Shown here: piece after piece, positions 7,262 to 28,904 of the stretch | Numbering within the stretch: the stretch's first letter is position 1 | Layout of the letters: every line of letters begins with the position of its first letter | Origin: Eubacterium sp. | GTDB lineage: Bacteria; Bacillota; Clostridia; Lachnospirales; Lachnospiraceae | Assembly: GCA_022769325.1 (NCBI GenBank) | Contig: JALEKC010000042.1 | Location: forward strand, 1 to 41,471 | Direction: 5' to 3' | DNA length: 41,471 bases | The notes under the pieces: generated by a model | Databases searched by the model: none | Seen by the model: the letters and a program-made list of their open reading frames with translations, nothing else | What the model was told of the DNA's origin: nothing | Position numbers and translations under genes: made by a program

Positions 7262-7969
7262 CTATTTGCCGGCGATACGTGTCACCGTCAACTTAAATAA
7301 TGTCTTAATATAACTCATGATAAATGGTATTAAACGTCTCTTGGATTCCCCATAAATTCTCTTATTGAATTCAATCGGAATTTCTCCAATTTTCAATTTT
7401 TTATTCGATTTATTCAGTCGGAGACGCAAAAGCACTTCCTGAAGCACATCGTAATTGTGACAGGTAAGTTTCACTCTCTTTAACTGCGCAGTCTCATACA
7501 TACGATAATCCGTGGAAATATCTTTTGCCTTGATTCCAAGGAAAAAGCGGAACATTCCATTTAATATGTGAGACATGATGATGGATGATTTGGCATCGTT
7601 GGTCTTTCCACCCTCCACATAACGGGATCCGATGACAACATCGCATTGCTCTTCTGTAAATTTTTTATAGATATCCGGAATATACTTAGGGTTATGAGAT
7701 CCATCGCTGTCCAAAATCAGGAACTTGTCCTTCTCGGCATACTTGATTCCGGTTTTAAACGCTCCGGCAAAGGCGGGCTCTTCCTGATTGATATAACGAG
7801 CACCAAACTCTTCGCATACGCCTTTTGTATTATCCAATGGTTCTGCGGTATCCACAACCAAAATCTCGTACTCTTCTCCGGTTTTCTCAACATTTTCAAT
7901 AATTTGCGGCAATAAGACTCTTAAATTATCTTCTTCTTTATATGCCAGCAAAACTACGCTGATTCCCAT
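7262..7969 (-). CDS. DPM1-like GT2 glycosyltransferase (polyprenyl-phosphate sugar synthase)
   Basis: This 235-residue protein is a compact GT-A domain with no membrane segment. It starts ISVVLLAYKEEDNL and has DSDGSHNPKYIP (DxD-like) near residue 90 and VIGSRYVEGG, motifs typical of dolichyl/polyprenyl-phosphate mannose synthases. Such enzymes load a sugar onto a polyprenyl phosphate for use by GT-C transferases outside the membrane. The next genes upstream encode a GtrA-like protein and two large membrane proteins, and the next downstream make GDP-mannose and GDP-rhamnose, so a GDP-sugar donor is likely. GGAGGAAGAGAC precedes the ATG. The exact sugar is inference. Confidence 0.85.
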   Translation of the reverse strand: MGISVVLLAYKEEDNLRVLLPQIIENVEKTGEEYEILVVDTAEPLDNTKGVCEEFGARYINQEEPAFAGAFKTGIKYAEKDKFLILDSDGSHNPKYIPDIYKKFTEEQCDVVIGSRYVEGGKTNDAKSSIIMSHILNGMFRFFLGIKAKDISTDYRMYETAQLKRVKLTCHNYDVLQEVLLRLRLNKSNKKLKIGEIPIEFNKRIYGESKRRLIPFIMSYIKTLFKLTVTRIAGK

Positions 7970-8012
7970 GTCTCTTCCTCCATCATTCTAGTTATTCATT
8001 CTTCAACAATTT

Positions 8013-8041
8013 ATTTTACCATACAAAAAGGCATTTGAAAA
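8013..8041 (-). promoter_or_regulatory. Possible weak promoter before the DPM1-like gene
   Basis: On the minus strand TTTTCA (8036-8041), a 17-base spacer and TAAAAT (8013-8018) occur in the 79-base gap after the GtrA-like gene. The match to the vegetative consensus is partial, so it could be an internal booster promoter for the mannose branch or chance in AT-rich DNA. Confidence 0.3.
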
Positions 8042-8048
8042 GGGGTTT

Positions 8049-8603
8049 TTATGATTCTTCTGCCTTAAATGCCCATAATTTATTCATTAAAAAGTTAATT
8101 GGAATGGCAATCACAAGGCTAATCAATGGGGCAATGCGGTCAGAGATATGACAAACGCTTACCCATACGGTATTTAAAACCGGATTTAAGACAATTCCAG
8201 TCACACCATAGGAGAGATAGGTCTTAAATAATGCCTTTCCAAAACTTCTTGTTTTTCCTTCTTCCAATTTAAATACAAAGCGGTTGTTGAGCAAAAAGGA
8301 TACAAAGACACTAATTAAAAATCCAATGGCTGTTGCAATCCATACTGCTACCGGTGCATTTTCAAATCCAAAAACCGTCATCTTGTCCACACCGGCACTC
8401 TGCAACCCGATGAGGCTCAATAAATAAATGACATAATTAAATACAGTATTCCAGACTCCTACCAGCCCAAATTTTACAAACTGAAACAAAGCCTCCCACT
8501 GTTCTTCCGTGAACTCTTTATGCACCAATTTCAGTAAAAGGCCAAAAATGGTACGCACCATCGACTCAATTATATTCCATAATACTTCACCAATTTTATT
8601 CAT
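8049..8603 (-). CDS. GtrA-like membrane protein
   Basis: This small protein of 184 residues has four predicted membrane helices. It has the FxKFGLVGVWNTVFNYVIY start of the GtrA domain near residue 40, followed by FLLNNRFVF and a final helix ending NFLMNKLWAF, the family's usual closing motif. GtrA-type proteins are thought to move or present polyprenyl-linked sugars across the membrane. It sits between a large membrane transferase gene and the DPM1-like gene, the classic pairing of a polyprenyl-P-sugar synthase with GtrA. Its N-terminal extension of about 35 residues is amphipathic and unremarkable. GGAGACAATATC precedes the ATG. Confidence 0.88.
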   Translation of the reverse strand: MNKIGEVLWNIIESMVRTIFGLLLKLVHKEFTEEQWEALFQFVKFGLVGVWNTVFNYVIYLLSLIGLQSAGVDKMTVFGFENAPVAVWIATAIGFLISVFVSFLLNNRFVFKLEEGKTRSFGKALFKTYLSYGVTGIVLNPVLNTVWVSVCHISDRIAPLISLVIAIPINFLMNKLWAFKAEES

Positions 8604-8645
8604 GATATTGTCTCCTGTCCTTTTATCTTCTTTCGTTCTATCTTA

Positions 8646-10103
8646 TCAAGAGATAAAACAATTTGCAAATGAATATAGCATAAATAGTATCATCGGCAGG
8701 CTTCGCAGCAATACAGGACCACGTTCAAACGCAGTCATTTCCTCGTTTGGGGTCACACCTCGCCAATGGCGATATAAATCCATCACCGTTGCCGCCATCC
8801 ATCCAACAAGAGCAGCCGTGAGCAATGAGATATAAAGATCTACCGGAATTCCAGCCATCTTTTGAACTAAAATCGGATAAATGGTTCCAAAATCTCCACC
8901 ATCGGTATGCAATCCGGCCAATTGAGAAATCACGCCTCCATTAATCAAGTCATTGTCATAATTAAAGAGCCAGCCCAGGGCACAGACTGCCAGCCAAAAG
9001 ATGGAAAAAAAGCACTCAATCAAGCAAAACAATTTTTTCCGGTAACTGAATCCCAGCATAATAACCGCAAAGGGAACCATATATACCAGCCAGTTTGGAT
9101 GCCATTGCACAAATAGAATAAACGCCAGCCAGGATAACATTGGTAATCCAAATGCAAGGGGCATGGTTACTTTTTTTATGCTATATGCCACAATGCAAAT
9201 CAGTACAAATAATAAGATGAAATAACTGCTATTGGCAGTATAAACATTTCTGGTTGTGGGAATTCCCGCATTAAATAGTCGTTCCCAGAAACTATACAAT
9301 CCACTCATATATTTTTGTACCCTTTGATATCCCGGATCGGAACCATAAAAAATCTGTTGTAGTAAAAGACCGGCTACCGACACTAGGCAGTCCCGCAAAA
9401 TATAGATAATTCTTTTTTCACGAAGTAAAAACAAGGGAACCAGACCAATTAGAACAAGGGGTTTGTAAAAAGCAGCTATGGCATAAAAAGCCAATTCCCA
9501 CTTTTTCTTTCCCTGAAGCCAGGCACGCAACCCCAGTACCATGAAAAACAAAGCAAAAATATCCATCTGGGATATCATCAACAAACCATACCATAAAATC
9601 GGTGATGTTAAAAAGCAAAAGGAAACCCATTTTGTGGTCTCTGCTTTCATGGAAACTTCTTTACATATATCTGCCAGTACTTTGGTAAGATAAAATACAG
9701 CCGCAGTAAATAACAATTTTAACAGCAATTCATATACAAGAAAAGGAATCGCAACATGCAATACTTTTCCGATGATATAAACCGGGAGACAAATAACGCC
9801 CAAGGTAGCATAATTGATGATGGAATAATTCGCACCAGCGCTGAGATTTTTTCCCCAAACCGAGTCATAATATCCGGATAAAGCCTGTTTGTTCACAATG
9901 GTATAAAAGTCTTTTAACCGTCCATTTAAGAGACAGGAATCAAAGGTCAAAGACTGGGTCACTGTCAATTTAAAGTCTTTCAAAAAGCAGAAAAAGAATG
10001 TCATAATTGCAACAAAAACAAAAACTGCAATCCAGTCTCCTTTTCGCGGGCCCCCGGTTCCATCATTCCATATATTTACCCTCTTACGAAATTTCTCCAT
10101 CAT
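8646..10103 (-). CDS. Polytopic membrane protein, probable GT-C glycosyltransferase
   Basis: This 485-residue protein begins with a cytoplasmic basic tail followed by about ten or more hydrophobic segments. The first outside loop carries acidic residues (SLTFDSCLLNGRLKDFY), as expected of GT-C transferases that use polyprenyl-phosphate sugars. WHPNWLVYMVPF in the later half resembles mannosyltransferases of the GT87/PIG-M-like groups. The family cannot be named firmly by eye. Its place beside GtrA-like and DPM1-like genes suggests that it uses the lipid-linked sugar they provide. The ATG at 10103 has GGAGGAATCAA before it; a second ATG follows directly. Confidence 0.7.
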   Translation of the reverse strand: MMEKFRKRVNIWNDGTGGPRKGDWIAVFVFVAIMTFFFCFLKDFKLTVTQSLTFDSCLLNGRLKDFYTIVNKQALSGYYDSVWGKNLSAGANYSIINYATLGVICLPVYIIGKVLHVAIPFLVYELLLKLLFTAAVFYLTKVLADICKEVSMKAETTKWVSFCFLTSPILWYGLLMISQMDIFALFFMVLGLRAWLQGKKKWELAFYAIAAFYKPLVLIGLVPLFLLREKRIIYILRDCLVSVAGLLLQQIFYGSDPGYQRVQKYMSGLYSFWERLFNAGIPTTRNVYTANSSYFILLFVLICIVAYSIKKVTMPLAFGLPMLSWLAFILFVQWHPNWLVYMVPFAVIMLGFSYRKKLFCLIECFFSIFWLAVCALGWLFNYDNDLINGGVISQLAGLHTDGGDFGTIYPILVQKMAGIPVDLYISLLTAALVGWMAATVMDLYRHWRGVTPNEEMTAFERGPVLLRSLPMILFMLYSFANCFIS

Positions 10104-10121: not shown

Positions 10122-12308
10122 CTACTCCAAAAAAGTCACCGTAATTTTCTTCACATAGATACCGCATGTGATATCATCATCATTATGTTTTGATTTGAAT
10201 ACATCATCCGTATTAAAGAAGAGCCAGTTTACACCTTCGCCTTTGTGCTCATTGGTGGTAGTTTTCAAATTCGTATCAAATTCCACAACACCGGACTCCT
10301 GATTCTCTAATTTTGCCTTTTCTTTGCCATTTACTTTAATCTTGGTAACACCTTTTTTCTTGCCGCCTTCGTATTCAACCATAATATGCGCCTTTTTTGC
10401 ACCACCGGACAAAATCCGAACCACACTTTGACCGGAAGTCCAGGTTCCGTCATCGCCGAAATCAGTCTCATTCCATCCACTGTGGGCAAATTTCTTTCCA
10501 AGACCCTGATCAGAAAAATCAAGTTCCACATAAGGACTTTCTGCGCTCAAATAAACATCTCGATAAGGCTGAACCCCCTCGATTGGTTTCTTGGATGCCA
10601 GAATCTTATTATCTACTTCATAGAAATTTGCCACTCCTTTATATTTATGAGCACTTCGATAGTCCACAATATAAAGGGTATTCTCATCTAAGGTGCCATT
10701 TAGAAATTGCTTTTTAATTTCTTTATTCTCTTTCTCTACCAGACTATACTTGATAAATCGGGACATGTAAAAATAATTGACATCCATTCCTTCCACCATG
10801 GATGCTTTAGTTCCCACCTGCATCATCTGGTACAAACCATATCCTACCACCGGATAGTAAACAATATGCTTATAATTTTTAAGTTGGGTATCCCAAAACG
10901 GATTCTGAACCATGCTATTTTCTTCTACCGGCTCAGATGTATATTGTTTATGAATCTGAGAAATTGGTTTTGCCAGATCCATCAATTGCAAACAAAGGCA
11001 CAATGCCACCACAATAGTACAAACCTTTTTATTGCGAATCATACGGGCTGTCATATACAAGCCGAAAATCATTGCCATATACATAATAACCCAGATAAAA
11101 CGGCCGGAGGAACGAACTATGGCAAGTAAATCATAGCAAAATTGTGGCAGATAAACCTGAATAATTATATGTTTTCCCACGTAGACCCAAGTTGTAACAG
11201 CAAGACAGCCAAACACGGTAACTACGATAAACAAAGAGATAAGACCGGCCGCATGATTTTTCGCAAATTGCTTCAAGCGAATCCAACATTTATGCTCTTT
11301 ATGCATTTGAACCATACGACGAATCAATAGGATAATGCCAATGAGACACAATACAATCATTCCCAGTCCAAGATAAGCAAATCCTTCGTATTGACCACTT
11401 CTCATTCCCATTCCGGAAAAGAAAGAGGAATATTCATAAGGATTAATCAAAGCATTCAGATTGGCTGAGTACAAACCAAATCCATTGCTTCCGGAATCCA
11501 GCACGTCCGTAAATCCACCCACAACAAAAAATGCTGCTACAAAGGATAGGGCAAAGCTTCCAAAAACGATAAATACACGTTTCCATTTACGCTCTTCCAA
11601 AAGAGTATGAAGGAGATATCCGCACATCAATCCTCCAACAATAAAAATAATATACATTTGAATCAATACACAAAGCACTCCCAGGATGGAAAATGCAAGG
11701 GCAGCTTTCCATATCTTTTGGAAACGTTCCCGGTACATCCAAATGGCAATAGGTGCCAGAATCAAAAAATGGGCTGCCAACGATGTATGACGTGAATTCT
11801 GTGTCAGAAGACCAAACATACGCTGTAAAACCGGCGTTGACAAAATAAAGAATACACTTCCTAAAGCAGCATACACTTTATTTTTTCTTATCTTTGCCAC
11901 AATCAGTGCTGCGAAACCACCATTGAGCATATAACACATCAATCCAAATAAACCAAAATATTGGAAAGTCTCCGGCAAAATTGGTGATAACAGTTTAAAG
12001 AAAATAGCAAAAAGTGGGATGGAGTCCGTATATAGTACACTTACCATATAAGGATGGGTCAAGCCGTCATGGCAACCAATCGGAAAAGTCCAGGCAGCAT
12101 CCCGATAATATTTCCATCCAATATAATGTTGTTGCAAATCTTTTCCCGTAAGGAGCCATGCATCATTTGTCACATTTAATACACCAAATCCATAAATTGC
12201 CACAAATAATACAGCACCAATCAAAGCACCAATTAAAAAGTACCATTTCAAGCTGTCCGGATTTTTCACCTTGACTTTCATTTCTTTCATTTGTCTCTCT
12301 TTCTTCAT
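10122..12308 (-). CDS. Large membrane protein resembling the DUF6311 group, with C-terminal outside domain
   Basis: This 728-residue protein has many membrane helices from about residue 22 to 438, then about 290 soluble residues presumably outside the cell. The first outer loop DLQQHYIGWKYYRD...WTFPIG...YTDSIPLFAIFFK resembles what I recall of DUF6311 membrane proteins, a group of presumed GT-C transferases. The last 120 residues look like a beta-sandwich (YVELDFSDQG, then HSGWNETDFGDDGTWTSG), a type often fused to such transferases. It starts only three bases after the GtrB-like stop, so it is translationally linked to that gene. The start may lie a few codons further in, because several Met codons cluster there. 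Confidence 0.75.
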   Translation of the reverse strand: MKKERQMKEMKVKVKNPDSLKWYFLIGALIGAVLFVAIYGFGVLNVTNDAWLLTGKDLQQHYIGWKYYRDAAWTFPIGCHDGLTHPYMVSVLYTDSIPLFAIFFKLLSPILPETFQYFGLFGLMCYMLNGGFAALIVAKIRKNKVYAALGSVFFILSTPVLQRMFGLLTQNSRHTSLAAHFLILAPIAIWMYRERFQKIWKAALAFSILGVLCVLIQMYIIFIVGGLMCGYLLHTLLEERKWKRVFIVFGSFALSFVAAFFVVGGFTDVLDSGSNGFGLYSANLNALINPYEYSSFFSGMGMRSGQYEGFAYLGLGMIVLCLIGIILLIRRMVQMHKEHKCWIRLKQFAKNHAAGLISLFIVVTVFGCLAVTTWVYVGKHIIIQVYLPQFCYDLLAIVRSSGRFIWVIMYMAMIFGLYMTARMIRNKKVCTIVVALCLCLQLMDLAKPISQIHKQYTSEPVEENSMVQNPFWDTQLKNYKHIVYYPVVGYGLYQMMQVGTKASMVEGMDVNYFYMSRFIKYSLVEKENKEIKKQFLNGTLDENTLYIVDYRSAHKYKGVANFYEVDNKILASKKPIEGVQPYRDVYLSAESPYVELDFSDQGLGKKFAHSGWNETDFGDDGTWTSGQSVVRILSGGAKKAHIMVEYEGGKKKGVTKIKVNGKEKAKLENQESGVVEFDTNLKTTTNEHKGEGVNWLFFNTDDVFKSKHNDDDITCGIYVKKITVTFLE

Positions 12309-12311
12309 ACC

Positions 12312-13274
12312 TTATTCACTATCTCCTACTTCTTTGTCATCAAAATTTAACCGTTCTTCTTCAATTACAAGAGGGCGGTGAGTCACACGTGAATTAATAT
12401 TCATAATATACTCTCCCAATAATCCAATAAAGAATAATTGAATGGACCCAAATATAAATATTCCCAAAAGAATAGGTGTCATACCTGCCACAAACCGATC
12501 CCAAAATATCAGTTTCATAATCAAATACACCAATGCCACTACAACACTGATTCCAGATAAAATAAATCCGGCTATGGTGGCAATACGCATACCTACTTTG
12601 GTATAAGAGGTGAACCCGAGCATGGCAGCATCATACAAACTATACCAGTTGTTGTGTGTTTTACCGGCGCGTCTTTTTTCCTGTTGATACTCAATATCTT
12701 TTCTTTTATATCCAAGTTCTGCCACAATTCCACGCAGGAAAGGAGTAGGATCATCTAATCCTTTCAAAACTTCGATAAATCCTCTGTCATACAATCCAAA
12801 TCCTGTAAAGTGCTCGATTTGTTCCACACTTGACATTTTCTTGATGAGTTTGTAATAACAACTTCTCAAGAAATACATAATTTTATTTTCTTTACTCTTG
12901 GATTTTATACCAATTACAATTTTGTTGCCGGCTTCCCACTCAGCCACAAACTTCGGAATCATATTGATTGGATCCTGAAAATCTGCACACATTAAAATCA
13001 CGCATTCCCCGGTTGTCTGCATCAAGCCATAATAAGGGGAATTGAATTGTCCAAAATTCTTTGCATTAAAAATTGCCTTAATCTGCGAATCTTTTTTACA
13101 TAACATACGAATCTTGTCTCTTGTAGTATCTGTAGAATCGTTGTCTATAAAAACAATCTCATACTCATATTGAGGAAGGCTTTTCTCAAACTCCGCAACA
13201 ATTGCTTCACTTAATGGCACAACATTTTCTTCCTCATTATAAGTCGGTATCAATACACTAATTCGTTTTTTCAT
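12312..13274 (-). CDS. GtrB-like GT2 glycosyltransferase with two C-terminal membrane helices
   Basis: This 320-residue protein has an N-terminal GT-A domain (ISVLIPTYNEEENV; VFIDNDSTDTT; MCADFQDP as the DxD region) and two hydrophobic helices near residues 228-285. This is the architecture of GtrB/ArnC/DPM-type polyprenyl-phosphate glycosyltransferases. The start was placed at 13274: GGAG lies six bases upstream, and the resulting ATGA overlaps the SDR stop by four bases, whereas the earlier in-frame ATG lacks a good site. The tight coupling to the SDR gene suggests that its donor is the CDP-sugar made by the upstream pathway. That link is inference. Confidence 0.88.
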   Translation of the reverse strand: MKKRISVLIPTYNEEENVVPLSEAIVAEFEKSLPQYEYEIVFIDNDSTDTTRDKIRMLCKKDSQIKAIFNAKNFGQFNSPYYGLMQTTGECVILMCADFQDPINMIPKFVAEWEAGNKIVIGIKSKSKENKIMYFLRSCYYKLIKKMSSVEQIEHFTGFGLYDRGFIEVLKGLDDPTPFLRGIVAELGYKRKDIEYQQEKRRAGKTHNNWYSLYDAAMLGFTSYTKVGMRIATIAGFILSGISVVVALVYLIMKLIFWDRFVAGMTPILLGIFIFGSIQLFFIGLLGEYIMNINSRVTHRPLVIEEERLNFDDKEVGDSE

Positions 13275-14191
13275 GATTTTCTCCATTTCTTTTCAAGAAT
13301 TTCCCGGATTCCATCGGCAAATTCTGTCTTCGCTTGCCATTCCAGCTGTGTCTGTATTTTTGTTACATCCGGCCGCAAATGAACCGGACCTGCACTTCCA
13401 TAAGGGACTGCCCCAAAGGCAATTTCTGAATCGGAATGTAAAATTTCTTTCATTTCCAGCACAAAATCTTTCAATGGTCGAATTTTCCCGGATGCCACAT
13501 TATAAATGCCCTCCTCTGCCTTTGCCAGAGAAAATTTTGCCAGGGCCTCTGCCACATCCCGGATATAGATGTAATCCCAATCCTGACTACACTCTGTCAA
13601 TGCCAGTTTTTCATTCTTTCGCATTTTCGCCAGAGAAGACATAATCAAAGTACCCTCATAGTCTTCCGGACCAAAGACACTGAAAATTCGAACCCAGTAT
13701 AATTTCACAGGGGTGCCACGAAAATATTCTTTCAATGCTTCATAAGTCTGCTTTTTCATTCTGCCATAAGCTGTGTTGGGCTTGGCTTCATCCGATTCCG
13801 ACACCGTATCACTTACAAACCCATATTCTGCCTGCGAACCACTTCCCAAAAACATCTTGGCATGCATCTCTTGGGCTGCTTTTGCTGCCTGCAGGGACGC
13901 CTCATAATTTTCCCGCTGTTTGTTTTCATCGTCGCGAGAATCTCCTCTGGTACCATTCCAGGCAAGATGATAAAAACCATCCACGTCACAACCAATCAAA
14001 GAAGGTAATTTGTCCACTTCTGCCATATCAAGTTCTACGATTTTAACCCGCGCATCCTCGGGCACGCGATTTCGATTTGCAGAATGTGGTCGTATGACGG
14101 CATATATTTCTGTCTCTTTATCTTCCAATAATTTTTGTATCAAATAGGTTCCGATAAAACTCGAAGCACCGGTTACAACAATCCGCTTCAT
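13271..14191 (-). CDS. Extended SDR: NAD-dependent epimerase/reductase for a CDP-ketosugar
   Basis: This 306-residue extended SDR has TGASSFIGTYLIQKL at the N-terminus, GSGSQAEYG as the catalytic Ser region and AYGRMKK (YxxxK). DWDYIYIRDVAEA is typical of NDP-sugar reductases. It resembles the CDP-abequose/paratose synthase group and YerF-like reductases, which reduce ketones on CDP-3,6-dideoxy sugars. It is coupled by four-base ATGA overlaps to the transketolase C-half upstream and the GtrB-like gene downstream. Reduction of C-4, or of a ketone on a newly added two-carbon branch, are both possible. The product stereochemistry cannot be read from sequence. Confidence 0.83.
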   Translation of the reverse strand: MKRIVVTGASSFIGTYLIQKLLEDKETEIYAVIRPHSANRNRVPEDARVKIVELDMAEVDKLPSLIGCDVDGFYHLAWNGTRGDSRDDENKQRENYEASLQAAKAAQEMHAKMFLGSGSQAEYGFVSDTVSESDEAKPNTAYGRMKKQTYEALKEYFRGTPVKLYWVRIFSVFGPEDYEGTLIMSSLAKMRKNEKLALTECSQDWDYIYIRDVAEALAKFSLAKAEEGIYNVASGKIRPLKDFVLEMKEILHSDSEIAFGAVPYGSAGPVHLRPDVTKIQTQLEWQAKTEFADGIREILEKKWRKS

Positions 14192-15108
14192 CCCACTATC
14201 TCCCTTACTTTTTTAACAATGTCTTCTGCCACCATATGATAGTATTCACGCAAAAATCTCTGGCTTCCCACAATGGTTGTATATTCATCCTGCAGTCCCA
14301 TGCGGTATACACTGGCTCTCTCTCCTGACAGAGATGCCACAACTTCTGAAATTGCTCCGCCAAAGCCACCGACTACAGTATGCTCCTCAATTGTGACAAT
14401 CACTTGGTATTTTTTTGCAATTTCTTTTACTTTTTCTTCTGCCAAAGGTTTGATGCTGACAAAATCATACAATCCTACCTGAATTCCCTCTTCATTCAAT
14501 TGCTCACAGGCGATTTTGGCTTCTTCCAAAAGAGAGCCGGTGGCCAGCAATGCCACGTTTTCTCCCTCCTGCAAAGATATCACAGGCTGAAATCCCTGGA
14601 TTTTCTCATGATCATATAATTCATTTTCTCCCCCTTTTCCCAAGCGAATATACCCAGGTCCCTCGGTGGCATACGCTTCGCGAATTACCTCTACGGCTTC
14701 CATAGGATCCGATGGTGAGTATACTGTCATATTGGGCAGAGAGCGCATAATCGAAAGGTCTTCCGTGGCATGATGGCTCATTCCCAGCTGTCCGTAGGCA
14801 AAACCGCCTCCTACCACGATAATTTTTACATTGGCATTATGATAGCAAATATCATTTCTTACCTGCTCTAAGCAACGGATTCCCGGGAAATTTCCAATGG
14901 AATAAACATATACTTTTTTCCCTTCCAAAGCAAGTCCCGCTGCCACACTTGCCATATTTTGCTCGCAAATTCCGGCATTTATAAACTGATCCGGCAAGGT
15001 CTCCATAAACTCATTGAGCACACCAAACCCCAAATCTCCGGCAATCAACATAATATCCTTATCTTTTTTTGCCAGAGCCGTCAATTCATTGATTAAATGA
15101 TTTCTCAC
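14188..15108 (-). CDS. Transketolase-like protein, C-terminal (pyrimidine-binding) subunit
   Basis: This 306-residue protein holds the pyrimidine-binding and C-terminal domains of a split transketolase. GICEQNM near residue 49 supplies the conserved Glu that activates thiamine diphosphate, and a transketolase C-terminal domain follows from about residue 185. It forms a pair with the gene just upstream (four-base overlap), and together they make one full enzyme. Split transketolases in central metabolism lie with pentose-phosphate genes; this pair lies between rfbH and an SDR in a sugar-nucleotide operon. That suggests two-carbon transfer onto the CDP-ketosugar. The substrate is inference. Confidence 0.88.
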   Translation of the reverse strand: MRNHLINELTALAKKDKDIMLIAGDLGFGVLNEFMETLPDQFINAGICEQNMASVAAGLALEGKKVYVYSIGNFPGIRCLEQVRNDICYHNANVKIIVVGGGFAYGQLGMSHHATEDLSIMRSLPNMTVYSPSDPMEAVEVIREAYATEGPGYIRLGKGGENELYDHEKIQGFQPVISLQEGENVALLATGSLLEEAKIACEQLNEEGIQVGLYDFVSIKPLAEEKVKEIAKKYQVIVTIEEHTVVGGFGGAISEVVASLSGERASVYRMGLQDEYTTIVGSQRFLREYYHMVAEDIVKKVREIVG

Positions 15109-15914
15109 AGAGACTCACCTCCCAACTCTTCCATTGCCTGCTCATAAGCTTCTCCCTGTGGGTCTCGGTAATGCCACAAAAGAGTGTCTTCCATAAAGGA
15201 AACACCTTTCCCCTTTACGGTATTGGCAATAATCACATTTGGTCTGTCGGTTGACAATCTCGAAAAAGCATCCCTTAACTGGTCATGGTCATTTCCGTCT
15301 TTTACATCTATCACATTCCAGCCAAAGGCTTCCCAGCGTCTTGGCAAGTCCGTAAAGGCAATAACATCTTCACACCGTCCAAGAGCCTGCCATTTGTTAT
15401 GATCAATAATAACTGTAAAATTACCCAATTTTTGCTTGTTTGCCAAAAGGGCCATCTCCCAGATTTCTCCTTCTTCACATTCTCCGTCTCCGATAATGGC
15501 AAAAACACGGCTTGGGCTTTGACTGCGCTGCAACGCAATTGCCATACCGCATGCCATACCGGCACCATGTCCCAGACTTCCGGTGGAAACTTCAACCCCC
15601 GGCACTCCTTTACTGGAGACGTGGCCGGAATATACACTGCCATCGGTATAATATTTTTTCAACTCGGAACGGTCGAAGAAACCACATTCTGCAAGCGCTG
15701 TATAGATTGCAACTCCTGCATGTCCTTTACTCAGAATCAAACGGTCTCTCGTTTCCATTTTCGGATTTTTACAATCATAATTCATCACATCATGATAAAG
15801 CACTGCTACAATGTCAATAACAGACAATACGGCACCGATGTGTGCCGCATGACTGTTATGAATCATCTGAACAGTGTCTTTTCGCATTGCCAAAGCAAGT
15901 TCTTCACTGGTCAT
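15105..15914 (-). CDS. Transketolase-like protein, N-terminal (diphosphate-binding) subunit
   Basis: This 269-residue subunit carries the thiamine-diphosphate motif from GDGECEEGE (residues 142-150) to DHN (171-173), plus His residues of the transketolase N-terminal domain (SHAAHIG near 25, SKGHAG near 65, GSLGHG near 116). It lacks the pyrimidine domain, which is encoded by the next gene with an ATGA overlap. AAGGAAGAAG precedes the ATG. It follows rfbH by 16 bases. Full transketolases are over 600 residues; the two halves here sum to 575, a normal size for the split form. The partner and cofactor follow from the family; the role in surface sugar synthesis comes from position. Confidence 0.88.
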   Translation of the reverse strand: MTSEELALAMRKDTVQMIHNSHAAHIGAVLSVIDIVAVLYHDVMNYDCKNPKMETRDRLILSKGHAGVAIYTALAECGFFDRSELKKYYTDGSVYSGHVSSKGVPGVEVSTGSLGHGAGMACGMAIALQRSQSPSRVFAIIGDGECEEGEIWEMALLANKQKLGNFTVIIDHNKWQALGRCEDVIAFTDLPRRWEAFGWNVIDVKDGNDHDQLRDAFSRLSTDRPNVIIANTVKGKGVSFMEDTLLWHYRDPQGEAYEQAMEELGGESL

Positions 15915-15930
15915 ATGCTTCTTCCTTCCT

Positions 15931-17268
15931 TTATTTTACAGCTTCTTTAATAACTTTTGCCATGTAATCAATTTTTTCATCGGTCATACCCGGATATACA
16001 CCAAGCCAGAATGTATCTTTCATGATACGGTCTGTCACAGCCAGGTCACCTACCACACGATATCCCTTTCCGGAAGCTCGCATTTCATCAAAACATGGCT
16101 GTTTCACAATATTTCCGGCAAAGAGCATACGTGTCTGTACACCATGGTCTTCAATATATTGAACCACTTTATTTTTGTCCACTCCTTCACGACATGTCAG
16201 CAAGAATCCAAACCAGCTTGGTTTTGAATTTGGACATGGCTCCGGAAGAATCAACTTATCTTCCACTTCTTCCAAAGCAGCACGAAGACGATCAAAATTA
16301 TGTCTTCTCTTTTCCACAAATGTAGGGAATTTTGCCAACTGTGCACATCCTACAGCAGCCTGCATGTCTGTAGCTTTCAAATTGTATCCAAAATGGGAGT
16401 AAACATATTTGTGGTCATATCCCAATGGAAGTTCTCCATATTGTTTATCAAAACGATGTCCGCACATATTGTCTCTTCCGGATGGGCAGACACAATCTCT
16501 TCCCCAGTCACGCAGGGAACGAACGGCTTTATGAATCAACGGATTGTCGGTATAAACAGCTCCTCCTTCACCCATTGTCATATGATGTGGCGGATAGAAA
16601 CTGGAGGTTCCTACATCTCCGATGGTTCCCGTAAATTTTTCTTCTCCATTGATGGTATATTTTGAACCAAGAGCATCACAGTTATCCTCTACAAGCCATA
16701 AATTGTGCTTGTCACAGAATTCTTTGATGGTGCCAAGATCCCATGGATTTCCCAAAGTATGGGCAATCATAACTGCTTTTGTCTTTTCAGAAAGTGCTTC
16801 TTCCAACATGGACGCATCCATATTATACTGTGGGATTGTCATATCTACAAATACCGGTACTGCTCCATATTGAATAATAGGAGCAATGGTGGTAGGGAAT
16901 CCTGCTGCCACTGTGATTACTTCATCTCCCGGAAGAATTCTGCGCTCTCCCATAAGTGGGGATGTCAATGCCATAAATGCCAGCAGATTCGCAGAAGAAC
17001 CGGAATTCACAAGGGAACAATGTTTGATTCCAAGATATTCTGCAAATTCTTTTTCAAATTGATCCGTATAACGACCGGATGTCAACCAGAATTCCAACGA
17101 ACTGTCCACCAAGTTTACCATTTCCTCGTGTCCATAATAACGGGATGCATATGGGATACGATCTCCCTCTTCAAATGGTTTTTCCTGATTATGATATTTA
17201 TCACAATACTCTTTTACCATTTCCAAAATACTTTCTCTTGCCTGCTGCTCATTTTGATTTTCAAACAT
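15931..17268 (-). CDS. rfbH: CDP-4-keto-6-deoxy-D-glucose 3-dehydrase (E1)
   Basis: This 445-residue aminotransferase-fold enzyme replaces the PLP-binding Lys with His (FYPPHHMTMGEGG, His 228-229), the hallmark of the PMP-dependent dehydrase E1 (RfbH/DdhC/AscC). The cysteines needed for its iron-sulfur cluster are present: Cys197, then Cys259, Cys261 and Cys269 spaced C-x-C-x7-C. It removes the C-3 hydroxyl of CDP-4-keto-6-deoxyglucose, using an E3-type reductase that is not encoded in this window. It follows rfbG in the operon. A ribosome site AAAGGACG precedes the ATG. The product, a CDP-4-keto-3,6-dideoxyhexose, is the likely substrate of the next genes. Confidence 0.95.
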   Translation of the reverse strand: MFENQNEQQARESILEMVKEYCDKYHNQEKPFEEGDRIPYASRYYGHEEMVNLVDSSLEFWLTSGRYTDQFEKEFAEYLGIKHCSLVNSGSSANLLAFMALTSPLMGERRILPGDEVITVAAGFPTTIAPIIQYGAVPVFVDMTIPQYNMDASMLEEALSEKTKAVMIAHTLGNPWDLGTIKEFCDKHNLWLVEDNCDALGSKYTINGEEKFTGTIGDVGTSSFYPPHHMTMGEGGAVYTDNPLIHKAVRSLRDWGRDCVCPSGRDNMCGHRFDKQYGELPLGYDHKYVYSHFGYNLKATDMQAAVGCAQLAKFPTFVEKRRHNFDRLRAALEEVEDKLILPEPCPNSKPSWFGFLLTCREGVDKNKVVQYIEDHGVQTRMLFAGNIVKQPCFDEMRASGKGYRVVGDLAVTDRIMKDTFWLGVYPGMTDEKIDYMAKVIKEAVK

Positions 17269-17294
17269 AACTTTCGTCCTTTCTCGCTTATCTT

Positions 17295-18347
17295 TTATTC
17301 ACTTAAAAATTCCTGAATCTGCTGATTCATCACTTCTGCCACATTTTCACCGGCAAAATATGCCTTTGTCCACTCCACGGTCTTGTCAAGAGCCTCTGAA
17401 ACCGTCCAACGTGGCTTCCAACCAAAGGTTGTTTTCAATTTAGAGCAATCCAGTTTTAAGAAATTGGCCTCATGAGGACCACCATCATACTGATTGACCC
17501 ATTTCATTCCTTCGCCCCATTTGGCAACAAATAAATCCACCAAATCTCCGGTTGTGACACAATCGGTCTCATCCGGTCCCACATTGTAATACCCCTGGTA
17601 TTTTGCATCCTCATATTGCTCTTTGGCAATCATCAAATATGCCATTACCGGTTCAAGTACATGCTGATATGGTCTTGTGGAAAATGGGTTACGAATGATA
17701 ATATCCTTTTTCTCCTTTGCTGCGCGAACACAATCCGGGATAATACGGTCATTGGCAAAATCTCCTCCACCAATAACATTTCCGGCACGGGCTGTGGATA
17801 CTGCAACTCCCATTTCATTGAAAAAGGAATTTTTATAACTATGAGTTACCAATTCGGAACAGGATTTACTATTGGAATACGGATCATAGCCGTCCAATGG
17901 CTCATTTTCACGATATCCCCATTCCCATTCTTTATTTTCATAAACTTTATCTGTGGTAACATTCAAAAAACTCTTCACACAAGGATTTTTTCTGACGCAT
18001 TCACAGATGTTTACCGTTCCCATAACATTTGTCTCGTAAGTGTATACCGGGTCTTTATAGGAATCTCTGACAATAGGCTGTGCTGCCAAATGAAATACAA
18101 TTTCCGGCTGTACTTCTTCAAATACTTTCGCCAGTTTTTCCAAATCCCGGATGTCACCGATTACGGAATTCATCTTATCTTCCACCTCTGCCATGGAAAA
18201 TAAATTCGGATTGGTAGGTGCTTCCAGAGAATATCCGGTAACCTGTGCCCCTGCCTGTACCAGTGTGCGGCACATCCAGCTTCCTTTGAATCCGGTATGA
18301 CCGGTAATCAGCACTTTTTTCCCTTTATAAAATGTCAAATCTTTCAT
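17295..18347 (-). CDS. rfbG: CDP-glucose 4,6-dehydratase
   Basis: This 350-residue extended SDR begins GKKVLITGHTGFKGSW, the N-terminus of CDP-glucose 4,6-dehydratases. It has VTTDKVYEN for the catalytic Thr and acidic residues, and YSNSKSCSE for YxxxK. It makes CDP-4-keto-6-deoxy-D-glucose. Flanked by rfbF and rfbH in the standard order, its assignment is secure. GGAGGATAATC precedes the ATG at 18347. The gene sits 26 bases after rfbF. The length is as usual for the family. Confidence 0.96.
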   Translation of the reverse strand: MKDLTFYKGKKVLITGHTGFKGSWMCRTLVQAGAQVTGYSLEAPTNPNLFSMAEVEDKMNSVIGDIRDLEKLAKVFEEVQPEIVFHLAAQPIVRDSYKDPVYTYETNVMGTVNICECVRKNPCVKSFLNVTTDKVYENKEWEWGYRENEPLDGYDPYSNSKSCSELVTHSYKNSFFNEMGVAVSTARAGNVIGGGDFANDRIIPDCVRAAKEKKDIIIRNPFSTRPYQHVLEPVMAYLMIAKEQYEDAKYQGYYNVGPDETDCVTTGDLVDLFVAKWGEGMKWVNQYDGGPHEANFLKLDCSKLKTTFGWKPRWTVSEALDKTVEWTKAYFAGENVAEVMNQQIQEFLSE

Positions 18348-18373
18348 GATTATCCTCCATTTGTCTCATTTAC

Positions 18374-19153
18374 TCAATCTTCCCAAACTTTCCATGGAGC
18401 TTTTCCGGAAGCCCAAAGTTCTTCCAGTTTTTCCTTCTCACGTTTGGTATCCATGCATTGCCAGAAACCATCATGTTTATAAGCTTTTAACTCGCCCATC
18501 TTTGCCACTTTTTCCAATGGTTCTTTTTCAAATACCGTAGTGTCCCCTTCAATCAAGTCAAAGATACCCGGCTCCAAAACCATATATCCGGCATTGATAC
18601 GGCTTCCATCCATTTTATTTTTTTCACGGAAATTCTCGATGAAACCTTCTTCATTGATATCCAACACGCCAAAACGCTGTTCCACATTAATGGCCGTCAA
18701 TGTCGCCATCTTTCCATGGTCTTTATGGAATTTCAACAGTTCTGCAATATTAACATCGGACACACCATCACCATACGTAAGCATGAACGTCTCATCGCCT
18801 ACATATTTCTGAACTCGTTTTACACGTCCTCCGGTCATGGTATCCAACCCGGTATCTACCAAAGTTACTTTCCAAGGCTCTGCCACATTGTTATGAACCG
18901 TCATCTTATTTCCATCGGTAAAATCAAACGTAATATCACTATTGTGCAAATAATAATCATTAAAATATTCTTTGATTACATGCTGTTTATAACCACAGCA
19001 GATTACAAATTCATTAATTCCATAATGAGAATATTCTTTCATAATATGCCACAAGATTGGTTTTTCTCCGATGGCAATCATCGGTTTGGGCTTCAAGTGG
19101 CTTTCCTCACTAATTCTCGTTCCGTATCCTCCTGCTAGAATAACTGCTTTCAT
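18374..19153 (-). CDS. rfbF: Glucose-1-phosphate cytidylyltransferase
   Basis: This 259-residue nucleotidyltransferase starts MKAVILAGGYGTRISEES, followed by KPKPMIAIGEKPILWHIM, and carries LTYGDGVSDVN as the metal-binding aspartate region. All are typical of RfbF/DdhA, which makes CDP-glucose from CTP and glucose-1-P. It is the first enzyme of the CDP-dideoxyhexose branch and is followed by rfbG and rfbH. AAAAGGAGAGAAAT precedes the ATG. The glucose-1-P could come from the mutase at the end of the same operon. Confidence 0.96.
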   Translation of the reverse strand: MKAVILAGGYGTRISEESHLKPKPMIAIGEKPILWHIMKEYSHYGINEFVICCGYKQHVIKEYFNDYYLHNSDITFDFTDGNKMTVHNNVAEPWKVTLVDTGLDTMTGGRVKRVQKYVGDETFMLTYGDGVSDVNIAELLKFHKDHGKMATLTAINVEQRFGVLDINEEGFIENFREKNKMDGSRINAGYMVLEPGIFDLIEGDTTVFEKEPLEKVAKMGELKAYKHDGFWQCMDTKREKEKLEELWASGKAPWKVWED

Positions 19154-23176: not shown

Positions 23177-23204
23177 ACCCCCCGCCTGTCCCTCCCATAT
23201 GTTA
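23177..23204 (+). promoter_or_regulatory. Possible SigE/SigK-type sporulation promoter before the small subtilase
   Basis: CATATGTTA (23196-23204) matches the -10 pattern CATAnnnTA known for mother-cell sigma factors, and AC (23177-23178) lies 17 bases upstream as in SigK promoters. A start near 23211 would give a leader of about 21 bases with a good ribosome site. The motif is short, so this is suggestive only. A SigK-like gene lies 3.3 kb away. Confidence 0.35.
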
Positions 23205-23231
23205 ACAACAAAACGGAAAAAGGGGATTAAC

Positions 23232-24104
23232 ATGAACCGTGTCCGTGAAATCGTAAATGCATCTTATGCACACAACAGGGGCATCTATGGAAAGGGAAGC
23301 TGCATTGCCATTCTCGACAGTGGAATTTCCATGCACCCGGATTTTGACACCCGAATCATCGGATGGGTTGATATTCTTTCCCAAAAGCAGACCCCTTATG
23401 ATGATTACGGTCACGGAACACATGTGGCCGGCATCGCAGCGGGAAGTGGAATGGTCAGTCACGGTTTTTTCTGCGGAATCGCCCCTATGGCCAATCTGGT
23501 CATCGTCAAAGTTTTGAACAGCCAAGGCGAGGGCACTGTGTCCGATATTTGCAACGGCATCAACTGGGTACTTAAAAATCGATATAAATATGGTATCAAC
23601 ATCGTCAACATCTCCGCCGGAACAGCAAAAGAAAATGAATTCGATGAATTCTCCCCTTTGGTCCGAAAAGTGGAAGAGTTATGGAATGCGGGTCTTGTGG
23701 TAGTTGTGTCCGCCGGCAACCGAGGTCCTGCTGCCCAGACCATCAGTGCACCGGGCAACAGTCGAAAAGTCATCACCGTTGGCTATTATGGGAAAGAGGG
23801 CAATTCCGGCACCGGTCCCACCATTCATTGCATAAAAAAGCCCGATGTCATCACACCGGGAAGTCATATTGTCAGTTGTCATCATACCAATATAAACCAG
23901 ATTCCGTATACGAAAAAAAGTGGAACCTCCATGGCAACTCCCGTTGTCAGCGGAGGTATCTCACTTCTTCTCAGTATGCCCCATTATCAAAATTTAGAAC
24001 CCAAGGAAGTTAAAATCCGGCTAAAAAATAGCTGTACCGACCTTGGGCTCCCACATAACAAACAAGGTTGGGGACTTTTCAACATCAAGCAGCTTTTACT
24101 CTGA
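23232..24104 (+). CDS. Small subtilisin-like serine protease (S8), probably intracellular
   Basis: This 290-residue protease has an intact triad: Asp29 in AILDSGI, His61 in [12 protein letters not shown] and Ser233 in [12 protein letters not shown], with oxyanion Asn in SAGNRGP. It has no signal peptide and almost no propeptide, so it resembles intracellular subtilases more than secreted ones. The start was set at 23232 because AAAAGGGG lies a few bases upstream; an in-frame ATG 11 codons earlier has none. It is divergent from the polysaccharide operon and ends nine bases inside the end of glgP, tail to tail. A nearby second S8 protease and SigK-like gene suggest a sporulation or germination role, but that is inference. 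Confidence 0.9.
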
Positions 24105-26470: not shown

Positions 26471-27241
26471 ATGACAAAATTCGAAAAAGTGAAAACTGCC
26501 AGTACAATATTTTTCAGTCAGGCACTATTTTCCCCTTTTTTTCATAAACTAACATTAACGTATTCTTCTGAGGTGTCGCCTTTGCAATCTTTTCCTACCC
26601 CCCTGTCCGCTAAAGAAGAAGAATATTATCTCCGCCTTCACGAAAAGGGAGACAAGGACGCAAGACGGATTCTTATTGAGCGAAATCTGCGTCTGGTGGC
26701 ATATCTGGTAAAAAAATACAGTTCCAGCGATTTCCCCCAAGAAGACTTGATTTCCATCGGCACCATCGGTTTGATAAAGGCCGTGGATAGCTACCAAAGT
26801 GGGAAAGGTGTTCGTCTTGCCACCTATGCCTCCCGCTGTATCGACAATGAACTTCTTATGACTTTTCGAAGTGCCAAAAAACAAGCAAAGGAAGTCTATC
26901 TCTATGAGCCAATCAACGGGGAAGATAGCGATGGAAACTCTCTCCAATTGCTGGATTTGTTGGAAACCAACGACGAAGATGTGGCTGAGCGCCTTGAATT
27001 TGAAGAAAACGCAAAAAAAATATATCGATATCTGGATACGGTTTTAACCCAAAGAGAGCGGGAAATTATTCGAATGCGATACGGGCTTCCCAGAGAATAT
27101 CAGAGTCAGGAAAAAGTTGAACTTACCCAGCGGGAAATTGCCAAACAGTATGGAATCAGTCGCAGCTATGTCAGTCGTATTGAAAAGAAAGCATTAGAAA
27201 AACTTCGAGAGGCCTATAAAAATGACAAATCAAAAGCTTGA
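26471..27241 (+). CDS. sigK: SigK-like RNA polymerase sigma factor
   Basis: This 256-residue sigma-70 family protein has region 2 (NLRLVAYLVKKY, EDLISIGTIGLIKAVDSY, RLATYASRCIDNELL) and region 4 (REREIIRMRYGL, TQREIAKQYGISRSYVSRIEKKALEKLR). The segments FPTPLSAKEEEYYL and GDKDARRILIERN, plus SYQSGKGVRLATYA, match sporulation SigK more than SigE, SigF or SigG. The first 40 residues are hydrophobic and could be a pro-sequence like that removed from pro-SigK. No clear ribosome site precedes the ATG at 26471, so the start is uncertain. It overlaps the following Csp-like protease gene by 20 bases. Loss of region 3 is normal for SigK. Confidence 0.85.
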   Translation: MTKFEKVKTASTIFFSQALFSPFFHKLTLTYSSEVSPLQSFPTPLSAKEEEYYLRLHEKGDKDARRILIERNLRLVAYLVKKYSSSDFPQEDLISIGTIGLIKAVDSYQSGKGVRLATYASRCIDNELLMTFRSAKKQAKEVYLYEPINGEDSDGNSLQLLDLLETNDEDVAERLEFEENAKKIYRYLDTVLTQREREIIRMRYGLPREYQSQEKVELTQREIAKQYGISRSYVSRIEKKALEKLREAYKNDKSKA

Positions 27242-28904
27242 AACCTCATTGGAACTTGCCCTTTCTGTTCCTTCTTCCGTACGAAGTCAAAGTCCGGCAT
27301 TGGAAACCGGATATTCTCCGGAAACAGGGATTTGGGAACTTATCATACGATACTCCGGAGAACTTTCTCTCCCGGAGGATGTTACCCTTGTTTCCCTTTT
27401 GGGTGGATATGGCATTATATATCTTCCGGAAAATCGCATCGAAGAAATTTCAGCATTACCGCAAATTGAGTATATTGAAAAGCCCAAACGTCTTACCTTC
27501 TCCCTTGCCAAAGCCCGTGCCGCCGCCTGTATTACCCCCGTGACAAACCCACCCCGAAATCTGGACGGTGAAGGTATACTCGTTGGTATTATTGACAGTG
27601 GCATTGACATCTATCATCCGGACTTTCGCAACGAGGATGGAACCACCCGCATTGTCAATCTGTGGGATCAGACATTGGGGCAGGTTTTTTCCGAGGAAGA
27701 TATCAATGAGGCCCTTTTGGCAAATGATAACCGTTTTCCCAGTCGAGATTTCTCCGGTCACGGCACCCATGTTGCCGGTATCGCAGCAGGTAATGGACGG
27801 GCCAGTGACGGCCTTTATGCCGGAGTCGCTGCCAAAAGCAAACTTCTCATTGTCAAACTCGGAAATCTCTTGCCGGAAGCCTTTCCCCGTACCACTGAAC
27901 TAATGACCGCTTTAGACTATTGTATCCGTCGTTCTCTGGAACTAGCCATGCCACTTGCTCTCAACTTAAGTTTTGGCAACAACTATGGAAGTCATACCGG
28001 TTTTTCTCTGTTGGAAACCTATCTGGACACTGTGGCCACTATAGGACGCACCACCATCGCTGTGGGCACCGGAAACGAGGGAAATCTCGGTCGTCATGCT
28101 TCCGGCATTCTCACAGAAGGCACCCCACAGACGTTAGAGTTGTCCCTTTCTCCCGGCGAAACATCTCTTAGTATCCAGCTTTGGAAAGACTATTCCGATG
28201 AATTTCAAATCCGACTCACCTCTCCCTCCGGCGAATCTCTTTTATTAAACGAAAAAACCATCGGTTCCTATCAGGCCCGCCTTGGCAATACAGAGTTATA
28301 TTGGTATTTGGGAGAACCTTCCCCTTATCAGATCTTTCAGGAAATATATGTGGAAATGCTTCCTGCTTCCGGGCAACAGACTCTGGCGGAAGGGCTTTGG
28401 ACCTGGCAATTAACTCCCATTCATCTCAAAAATGGACGGTATGATTTTTGGCTTCCCTCCTCCTCCAGCATCAGTTCCGCCACCCGCTTTTTGATTGCAG
28501 ATCCTCAAACAACTCTTACCATTCCATCCACTGCTTTTCGCCCCATCAGTGTGGCAGCCTATGACAGCAATGCCAACCAGCTTGCCCCCTTTTCCGGACA
28601 GGGATTTACCACCTTATCCCAAACCAAACCTGATTTGGCTGCTCCCGGTGTTGATATCATCAGCACCGCACCCGGTGGCGGATATTCCGTCCGTTCCGGA
28701 ACTTCCATGGCAACTCCCTTTGTTACAGGAAGCACTGCTCTTCTCATGCAATATGGCATTATCAAAGGAAATGATCCCTATCTGTATGGGCAAAAAATAA
28801 AGGCCTGGCTCATTCGTGGAGCCAGACCTCTTCCTGCAATAAAAGAATACCCTTCTCCGGAAATCGGATGGGGTGTCCTTTGTCTGAAGGATTCTATTTT
28901 TTAG
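27222..28904 (+). CDS. Large S8 serine protease, Csp-like (clostridial germination protease type)
   Basis: This 560-residue subtilase has an intact triad: Asp125 in GIIDSGIDIYH, His180 in [13 protein letters not shown] and Ser495 in GTSMATPFVTG. The first roughly 100 residues look like a prodomain. A jelly-roll-like insertion of about 130 residues (around 300-430) sits between the catalytic segments, as in the Csp proteases that activate cortex hydrolase in Clostridium spores. No signal peptide is present. It starts 20 bases before the SigK-like stop and is probably translated by coupling. CspB-type is the best fit because all three catalytic residues are kept; CspA and CspC have lost some. 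It overlaps folA by 11 bases, tail to tail. Confidence 0.86.
   Translation: MTNQKLETSLELALSVPSSVRSQSPALETGYSPETGIWELIIRYSGELSLPEDVTLVSLLGGYGIIYLPENRIEEISALPQIEYIEKPKRLTFSLAKARAAACITPVTNPPRNLDGEGILVGIIDSGIDIYHPDFRNEDGTTRIVNLWDQTLGQVFSEEDINEALLANDNRFPSRDFSGHGTHVAGIAAGNGRASDGLYAGVAAKSKLLIVKLGNLLPEAFPRTTELMTALDYCIRRSLELAMPLALNLSFGNNYGSHTGFSLLETYLDTVATIGRTTIAVGTGNEGNLGRHASGILTEGTPQTLELSLSPGETSLSIQLWKDYSDEFQIRLTSPSGESLLLNEKTIGSYQARLGNTELYWYLGEPSPYQIFQEIYVEMLPASGQQTLAEGLWTWQLTPIHLKNGRYDFWLPSSSSISSATRFLIADPQTTLTIPSTAFRPISVAAYDSNANQLAPFSGQGFTTLSQTKPDLAAPGVDIISTAPGGGYSVRSGTSMATPFVTGSTALLMQYGIIKGNDPYLYGQKIKAWLIRGARPLPAIKEYPSPEIGWGVLCLKDSIF

Follow-up and report, generated by a model that had tools for sequence, protein, structure and literature searches.

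Among the closest described relatives of the gene cluster treated here is the yersiniose A cluster of Yersinia pseudotuberculosis, which presumably combines RfbFGH with YerE and a short-chain dehydrogenase/reductase (SDR). Transketolases (TKs) are textbook enzymes for aldehyde acceptors, and miharamycin and amipurimycin, for which such enzymes have also been proposed, are nucleoside antibiotics. YerE is reported to use pyruvate as the source of activated acetaldehyde, which it transfers to CDP-4-keto-3,6-dideoxyglucose (PMC12247030; PMC4753412), and the ketoreduction step of the yersiniose pathway was given in PMC4753412 as uncharacterised at its date. According to a 2025 review (PMC12247030), the transfer of hydroxyacetyl to keto sugars has been proposed as the task of TKs in the miharamycin and amipurimycin clusters, and the 13 split TKs of Krug et al. 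all came from Streptomycetes, none of them being characterised in vitro. The AviB1/AviB2-type two-subunit enzymes of octose antibiotics (alpha-keto acid dehydrogenase 2 group) were proposed for C2 branching of a sugar and reported to use pyruvate as the donor (PMC4753412; PMC12247030). TK use on a keto sugar has been proposed in antibiotic producers and never shown, as far as found. The cluster described here lies on a 41,471-nt stretch of DNA from a Eubacterium sp. (Lachnospiraceae), called the window in its whole length, and carries, between rfbH and an extended SDR gene, the N- and C-terminal halves (TK-N and TK-C) of a split TK dependent on thiamine diphosphate (ThDP). With a probability of about two in three, it encodes a branched-sugar pathway resembling that of yersiniose, with a dedicated split TK in place of the YerE-type enzyme.

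The minus-strand open reading frames of the window follow the order rfbF, rfbG, rfbH, TK-N, TK-C, extended SDR and GtrB-like transferase, and the layout given in a preliminary description of this DNA was confirmed by both order and family matches (Table 1). RfbF, RfbG and RfbH were all found above curated NCBIfam cut-offs. As in the yersiniose A pathway, the acceptor would be CDP-4-keto-3,6-dideoxyglucose, and a ThDP carboligase would be followed by a reduction, but a transketolase encoded by two genes takes the place of a ThDP protein with the acetolactate-synthase fold (TPP_enzyme_N/M/C), so the pathway is a variant of the yersiniose type and not a strict member; the expected branch is 1,2-dihydroxyethyl instead of the 1-hydroxyethyl of yersiniose A. 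The term YerE-type is used below for ThDP proteins of that fold and does not imply YerE orthology (the two scanned matched acetolactate-synthase models below cut-off). The window pair presents Transketolase_N, Transket_pyr and Transketolase_C domains together with the ThDP-binding and catalytic residues, and TK-N scored 142.6 bits with PF00456, compared with 30.4 bits with DXP_synthase_N and 24.2 bits with E1_dh (PF00676). The pair resembles the AviB1/AviB2-type enzymes as a two-gene ThDP enzyme proposed for a C2 sugar branch, but fits transketolase far better than the E1 dehydrogenase alpha family, and the donor of the AviB1/AviB2 type is reported to be pyruvate. With the split TKs of the miharamycin and amipurimycin producers (Streptomyces), compared by description only, it shares the split gene and the proposed hydroxyacetyl transfer to a keto sugar, whereas the window and its relatives, mostly Clostridia, have a CDP-sugar cluster of the surface-polysaccharide type. 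The closest solved relatives by sequence were chains of the Carboxydothermus hydrogenoformans split TK (6yak for TK-N and 6yaj for TK-C).

The exchange of enzymes in the slot between rfbH and the SDR gene was found in other clusters. Locus L131 reads rfbF-rfbH-[TPP_enzyme_N/M/C protein]-SDR-GtrB-rfbG, with 49% identity for the SDR and 69% for GtrB. The genomes of 84,980 species were scanned using an alignment built from the SDRs of the window, L131 and L183, and the best 80 of 200 loci were compared. Directly upstream of the 13 SDRs at least 42% identical to that of the window, the TK pair was found in nine and a YerE-type gene in three, while the remaining SDR begins 35 bases from a contig end. 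Below 42% identity (n = 67), a TK was found at 6 loci, a YerE-type gene at 44 and neither at 17, within 7 kb on the same strand; the corresponding values for the 49 SDR loci also showing rfbH were 14, 30 and 5. The comparison with YerE and YerF drawn in the preliminary description is upheld by these clusters, in which homologous SDRs, 42–49% identical, stand directly behind either TK or YerE-type genes. GtrB-like copies, mostly 57–72% identical, adjoin both kinds of cluster. TK and YerE-type genes swap repeatedly in a rapidly built SDR tree of 83 rows (without bootstrap, the L267 label set by hand and L202 lost to a length filter), where the TK label needs 10 changes, at least 7 of them forced by starred branches. 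Sister SDRs were those of L260 (YerE) and L261 (TK) and of L220 (YerE) and L267 (TK), and the sisters L232 and L248 accompany TKs of different clades. The SDR was also associated with ThDP genes in 74 rfbH loci that had not been selected by SDR, a ThDP gene being found in 13/19 loci with an SDR and in 11/55 without one (130 bits, Fisher p = 0.0003). Two records titled as methanogens (L228 and L246; Methanosphaera and Methanobacteriaceae) carry rfbF-rfbG-rfbH, a YerE-type ThDP gene and an SDR, and the branched-sugar module may extend to archaea.

A split TK within an rfb cluster was found in 17 further genomes, mostly Clostridia, giving 18 loci with the window, among them Selenomonas ruminis mPRGC5 and Sarcina sp. 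DSM 11001 (names from record titles). At 16 of these 18 loci (15 of the 17 further genomes) the SDR immediately follows the TK, and since the split TK recurs in the rfb clusters of 17 other genomes, the arrangement goes beyond chance. The adjacency of rfbH and split TK, for which the preliminary description had suggested a genome survey, is not confined to the window. Of 299 genomes in the family draw, 99 had RfbH; in the phylum draw it was present in 23 of 398, and L099/L184 there has the TK between an SDR and rfbG. In a TK tree of 50 rows including the 18 rfb-linked pairs, starred clade A comprised the window, L197, L202, L232, L261, L267 and L269, with the non-rfb L006 inside and L184 joining weakly, and starred clade B, which is very diverged (branch 1.38), comprised ten loci.

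The active site of the 18 rfb-linked TKs was compared with that of 31 TKs without adjoining rfb genes, using E. coli TktA numbering. Residues H26, H66, H100, D155, N185, E411 and H473 were kept in 18/18 rfb-linked TKs, and the WH motif (H261) was seen in all of them. In contrast, H461 was lost in 18/18 (G in 7, Y in 10, A in 1) and kept in 22/31 of the others, D469 was lost in 18/18 (S in 10, L in 4, A in 3, M in 1) and kept in 23/31, and R520 was replaced in 16/18 (K in 6, V in 5, I in 4, T in 1) and kept in 30/31. The window TK has G, L and K at these three positions, which in TktA and yeast TK contact the phosphate and hydroxyls of the usual acceptors, and so departs from a pentose-phosphate TK; H100 and H473 presumably contact the ketol. 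The C. hydrogenoformans split TK, although the top solved relative of both halves, keeps in alignment the THAG and GEDG motifs at the H461 and D469 positions, both of which the window pair has lost.

The preliminary description had held that it would be refuted if the pair were the cell's only pentose-phosphate TK. Instead, the source genome (2.28 Mb, 87% complete) carries a second split TK, which immediately follows a transaldolase gene (PF00923) on contig C10, and this TK retains H461, D469 and R520. Weak third and fourth TK matches fall in one 650-aa frame, taken for a putative DXS. A further TK match was also found in 16 of the 17 other genomes with an rfb-linked TK (17/18 counting the source genome), the sole exception being the 1.0-Mb genome carrying L197.

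By family membership, RfbF, RfbG and RfbH would make CDP-4-keto-3,6-dideoxyglucose. The split TK would then take hydroxyacetyl, a two-carbon ketol group, from a donor such as a ketose phosphate and attach it to the C4 ketone, giving a tertiary alcohol. The SDR would reduce the ketone of the added side chain, leaving a 1,2-dihydroxyethyl branch, and the GtrB-like enzyme would load undecaprenyl phosphate from the CDP-octose so that the sugar can be passed to a surface polysaccharide. We infer the C2 transfer, the SDR reduction and the GtrB loading from the gene order, the exchange with YerE-type genes and the residues. Least certain is hydroxyacetyl as the transferred unit, which is suggested by transketolase family membership and by the retention of H100 and H473. 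Overall, the interpretation offered in the preliminary description is supported, with reaction, donor and product as its inferred parts; what was observed directly is the set of genes, their recurring order, the exchange with a YerE-type gene, the altered active site and the separate TK of the genome.

Several observations weigh against this reading. TK beside rfbH was rare in the family draw, in which all 104 rfbH places were read (the window, 29 loci with 1.5-kb flanks and 74 with up to about 4 kb): it was found at 2 of the 104, the window and L183. Of the 74 loci with flanks of up to about 4 kb, 23 carry a same-strand YerE-type ThDP gene, which makes this form common in the family and the TK form rare. 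At L267 a YerE-type gene occurs together with a TK pair; the locus was counted under YerE-type in the slot tally, its TK-N lying beyond the 7-kb limit. Distant SDR homologues also adjoin rfbH with no ThDP gene within reach: this was so for 11 of 25 SDR loci at a threshold of at least 90 bits among the 74 rfbH loci (6 loci at 130 bits and 3 at 160 bits), and because of these the SDR could, judging from its homologues, be a C4-ketoreductase. Among the 31 TKs without adjoining rfb genes, 9 lost H461, D469 or both, 8 of which keep R520. Non-rfb clusters whose TKs lost these residues are L006/L035, L007 and the L009 group, and by eye L271. Since TKs of such clusters lost them too, the H461 and D469 losses do not specify a CDP-ketosugar reaction and are weakened as a marker of it. 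Finally, a single clade for all 18 rfb-linked TKs was rejected when L006 was included (p-AU = 0.00027) and not rejected without it (p-AU = 0.354), though starred branches still force two changes there. The claim of two separate recruitments, which came from a first test with the non-rfb L006 inside clade A, was withdrawn, and the main reading was given slightly less weight for this; the rejection depends on L006, and the TK may have been recruited once or twice.

The C4-ketoreductase role would belong to an explanation in which the TK supplies a sugar phosphate, such as sedoheptulose-7-phosphate, for another component of the polysaccharide, and an unbranched 3,6-dideoxyhexose is formed. The SDR homologues beside rfbH without a ThDP gene speak for it, as does a related split TK in the L036 cluster, which has HldE- and GmhA-like genes (named by eye). 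Nevertheless, this appears improbable: heptose-type genes were matched in just 1 of the 18 rfb-TK loci (L192), the canonical acceptor residues are lost, another TK is present in 17/18 genomes, and a YerE-type enzyme, which supplies no sugar phosphate, fills the slot in other clusters. That a housekeeping TK is merely carried along by chance in a polysaccharide cluster is far less probable still and had already been made unlikely by the canonical TK elsewhere in the genome, the recurrence in 17 other rfb clusters and the altered active site, even though split TKs are widespread in the family, where TK-N was matched in 127 of 200 genomes (E 1e-60). Slightly less improbable than the supply of a precursor, and unlikely all the same, is a TK that does act on the CDP-4-keto sugar with another donor, the branch not being hydroxyacetyl but, for example, acetyl from pyruvate through DXS- or YerE-like chemistry. 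The transketolase and DXS scores of TK-C are close (166.7 and 150.2 bits, respectively), clade B is very diverged, and the GtrB and SDR types are common to YerE-type clusters; against this, TK-N is clearly a transketolase by its bit scores, both halves have a split TK as their nearest solved relative by sequence, and the presumed ketol contacts are kept in every rfb-linked pair.

The proposed branched-sugar pathway with a dedicated TK takes another form in L197, where the TK pair directly follows rfbG, its start codon lying 8 bases inside the rfbG frame, with SDR and GtrB types the same as in the other rfb-TK loci. RfbH was not found in that genome, a 1.0-Mb metagenome-assembled genome that may be incomplete and was searched without a positive control. 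If L197 lacks RfbH, the TK there would act on CDP-4-keto-6-deoxyglucose, in keeping with a C4 ketone as the acceptor. We lean slightly towards a wider proposal, that split TKs of two deep clades, perhaps separately recruited, act as ketol transferases on CDP-4-keto-(di)deoxyhexoses and give 4-C-(1,2-dihydroxyethyl) octoses in the surface polysaccharides of gut and rumen bacteria. If this is true, the octose would be 8-hydroxy-yersiniose, or its 3-hydroxy form where RfbH is missing, as in L197; to our knowledge, such a surface octose is known of nowhere. Judged from listings of the open-licence literature, which are not proof of absence, no report of a TK in an rfb/CDP-sugar pathway was found: transketolase appeared together with rfbH only in Salmonella papers, unrelated by title, and nothing was listed for transketolase with dideoxyhexose, with branched-chain octose, or for split-gene transketolase. 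Gene order, YerE-type exchange and active-site changes at the 18 loci all point to TK ketol transfer onto a keto sugar, and the loci make this question directly testable and offer catalysts for branched hydroxy-ketones.

Related split TKs were also observed outside rfb clusters. Two that are clade A-like and keep R520 (L035:9001-10955 and L271:8769-10606) lie close behind a bacterial sugar transferase gene (PF02397) with no rfb genes, hinting at a further role in polysaccharide loci. The L036 TK (7821-9562), without H461 and D469, lies near genes named by eye: two radical-SAM-like genes, an HldE-like kinase/cytidylyltransferase gene and NeuB/NeuC-like genes. A third split-TK group, with S/L at H461/D469, is represented by L040:5694-12541, adjoining a LacI-type regulator and a GlpK kinase. 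Apulose-4-phosphate TK is a ketone-type precedent, and this group (L009 and relatives) was considered for this function; the idea was dropped, as L040, the only cluster scanned, has its GlpK kinase and LacI-type regulator and nothing named for apiose, and no paper supporting it was found in the open-licence literature. In many Lachnospiraceae (L060, L061, L066, L067, L117, L124 and others) a 279–285-aa gene follows rfbH, frequently succeeded by a distant GT2 gene, and neither an SDR nor a ThDP gene was matched there. These genes were rejected as alternative C4-reductases, six looking LicD-like by eye and the one scanned belonging to the LicD family (PF04991).

The features of the window locus are collected in Table 1. 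The gaps between rfbF and rfbG and between rfbG and rfbH are of 26 bp each, and that between rfbH and TK-N is of 16 bp. The ATGA overlaps described earlier for all the following junctions hold for TK-C/SDR and, if the GtrB-like gene starts at its second ATG, as is likely, for SDR/GtrB; TK-N and TK-C overlap instead by GTGA, within which lies the GTG start codon of TK-C. A GDP-mannose/Gmd gene set also lies further along, and the whole resembles a surface polysaccharide locus in which the decorating sugar is lipid-linked. No near DNA relatives of the cluster were found in the plasmid collection.

Table 1. Features of the rfb-transketolase locus in the window, with strand and family matches.
Feature	Position	Strand	Match
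rfbF, glucose-1-phosphate cytidylyltransferase	18374-19153	-	TIGR02623, 403.9 bits (cut-off 300.25)
rfbG, CDP-glucose 4,6-dehydratase	17295-18347	-	TIGR02622, 458.6 bits (cut-off 278.45)
rfbH, CDP-4-keto-6-deoxyglucose 3-dehydrase	15931-17268	-	NF011936, 718.5 bits (cut-off 423)
Split TK N-terminal subunit, ThDP-binding domain	15105-15914	-	PF00456, 142.6 bits
Split TK C-terminal subunit, pyrimidine-binding and C-terminal domains	14188-15108	-	PF02779, 104.5 bits; PF02780, 81.3 bits
Extended SDR, proposed branch-ketone reductase, YxxxK present	13271-14191	-	PF01370
GtrB-like family 2 glycosyltransferase, proposed undecaprenyl-phosphate loading	12312-13286	-	PF00535; PgfS-like NF047588 below cut-off
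DUF6311 membrane protein, candidate GT-C-type transferase	10122-12308	-	PF19830
Candidate GT-C-type transferase, multi-pass membrane protein (suggested by sequence and position)	8646-10103	-	no family match
GtrA-like membrane protein, candidate flippase partner of GtrB	8049-8603	-	PF04138

On the plus strand of the window, two subtilase genes (23199-24104 and 27222-28904; PF00082, the second with a CspB prodomain) flank a carbohydrate phosphorylase gene.

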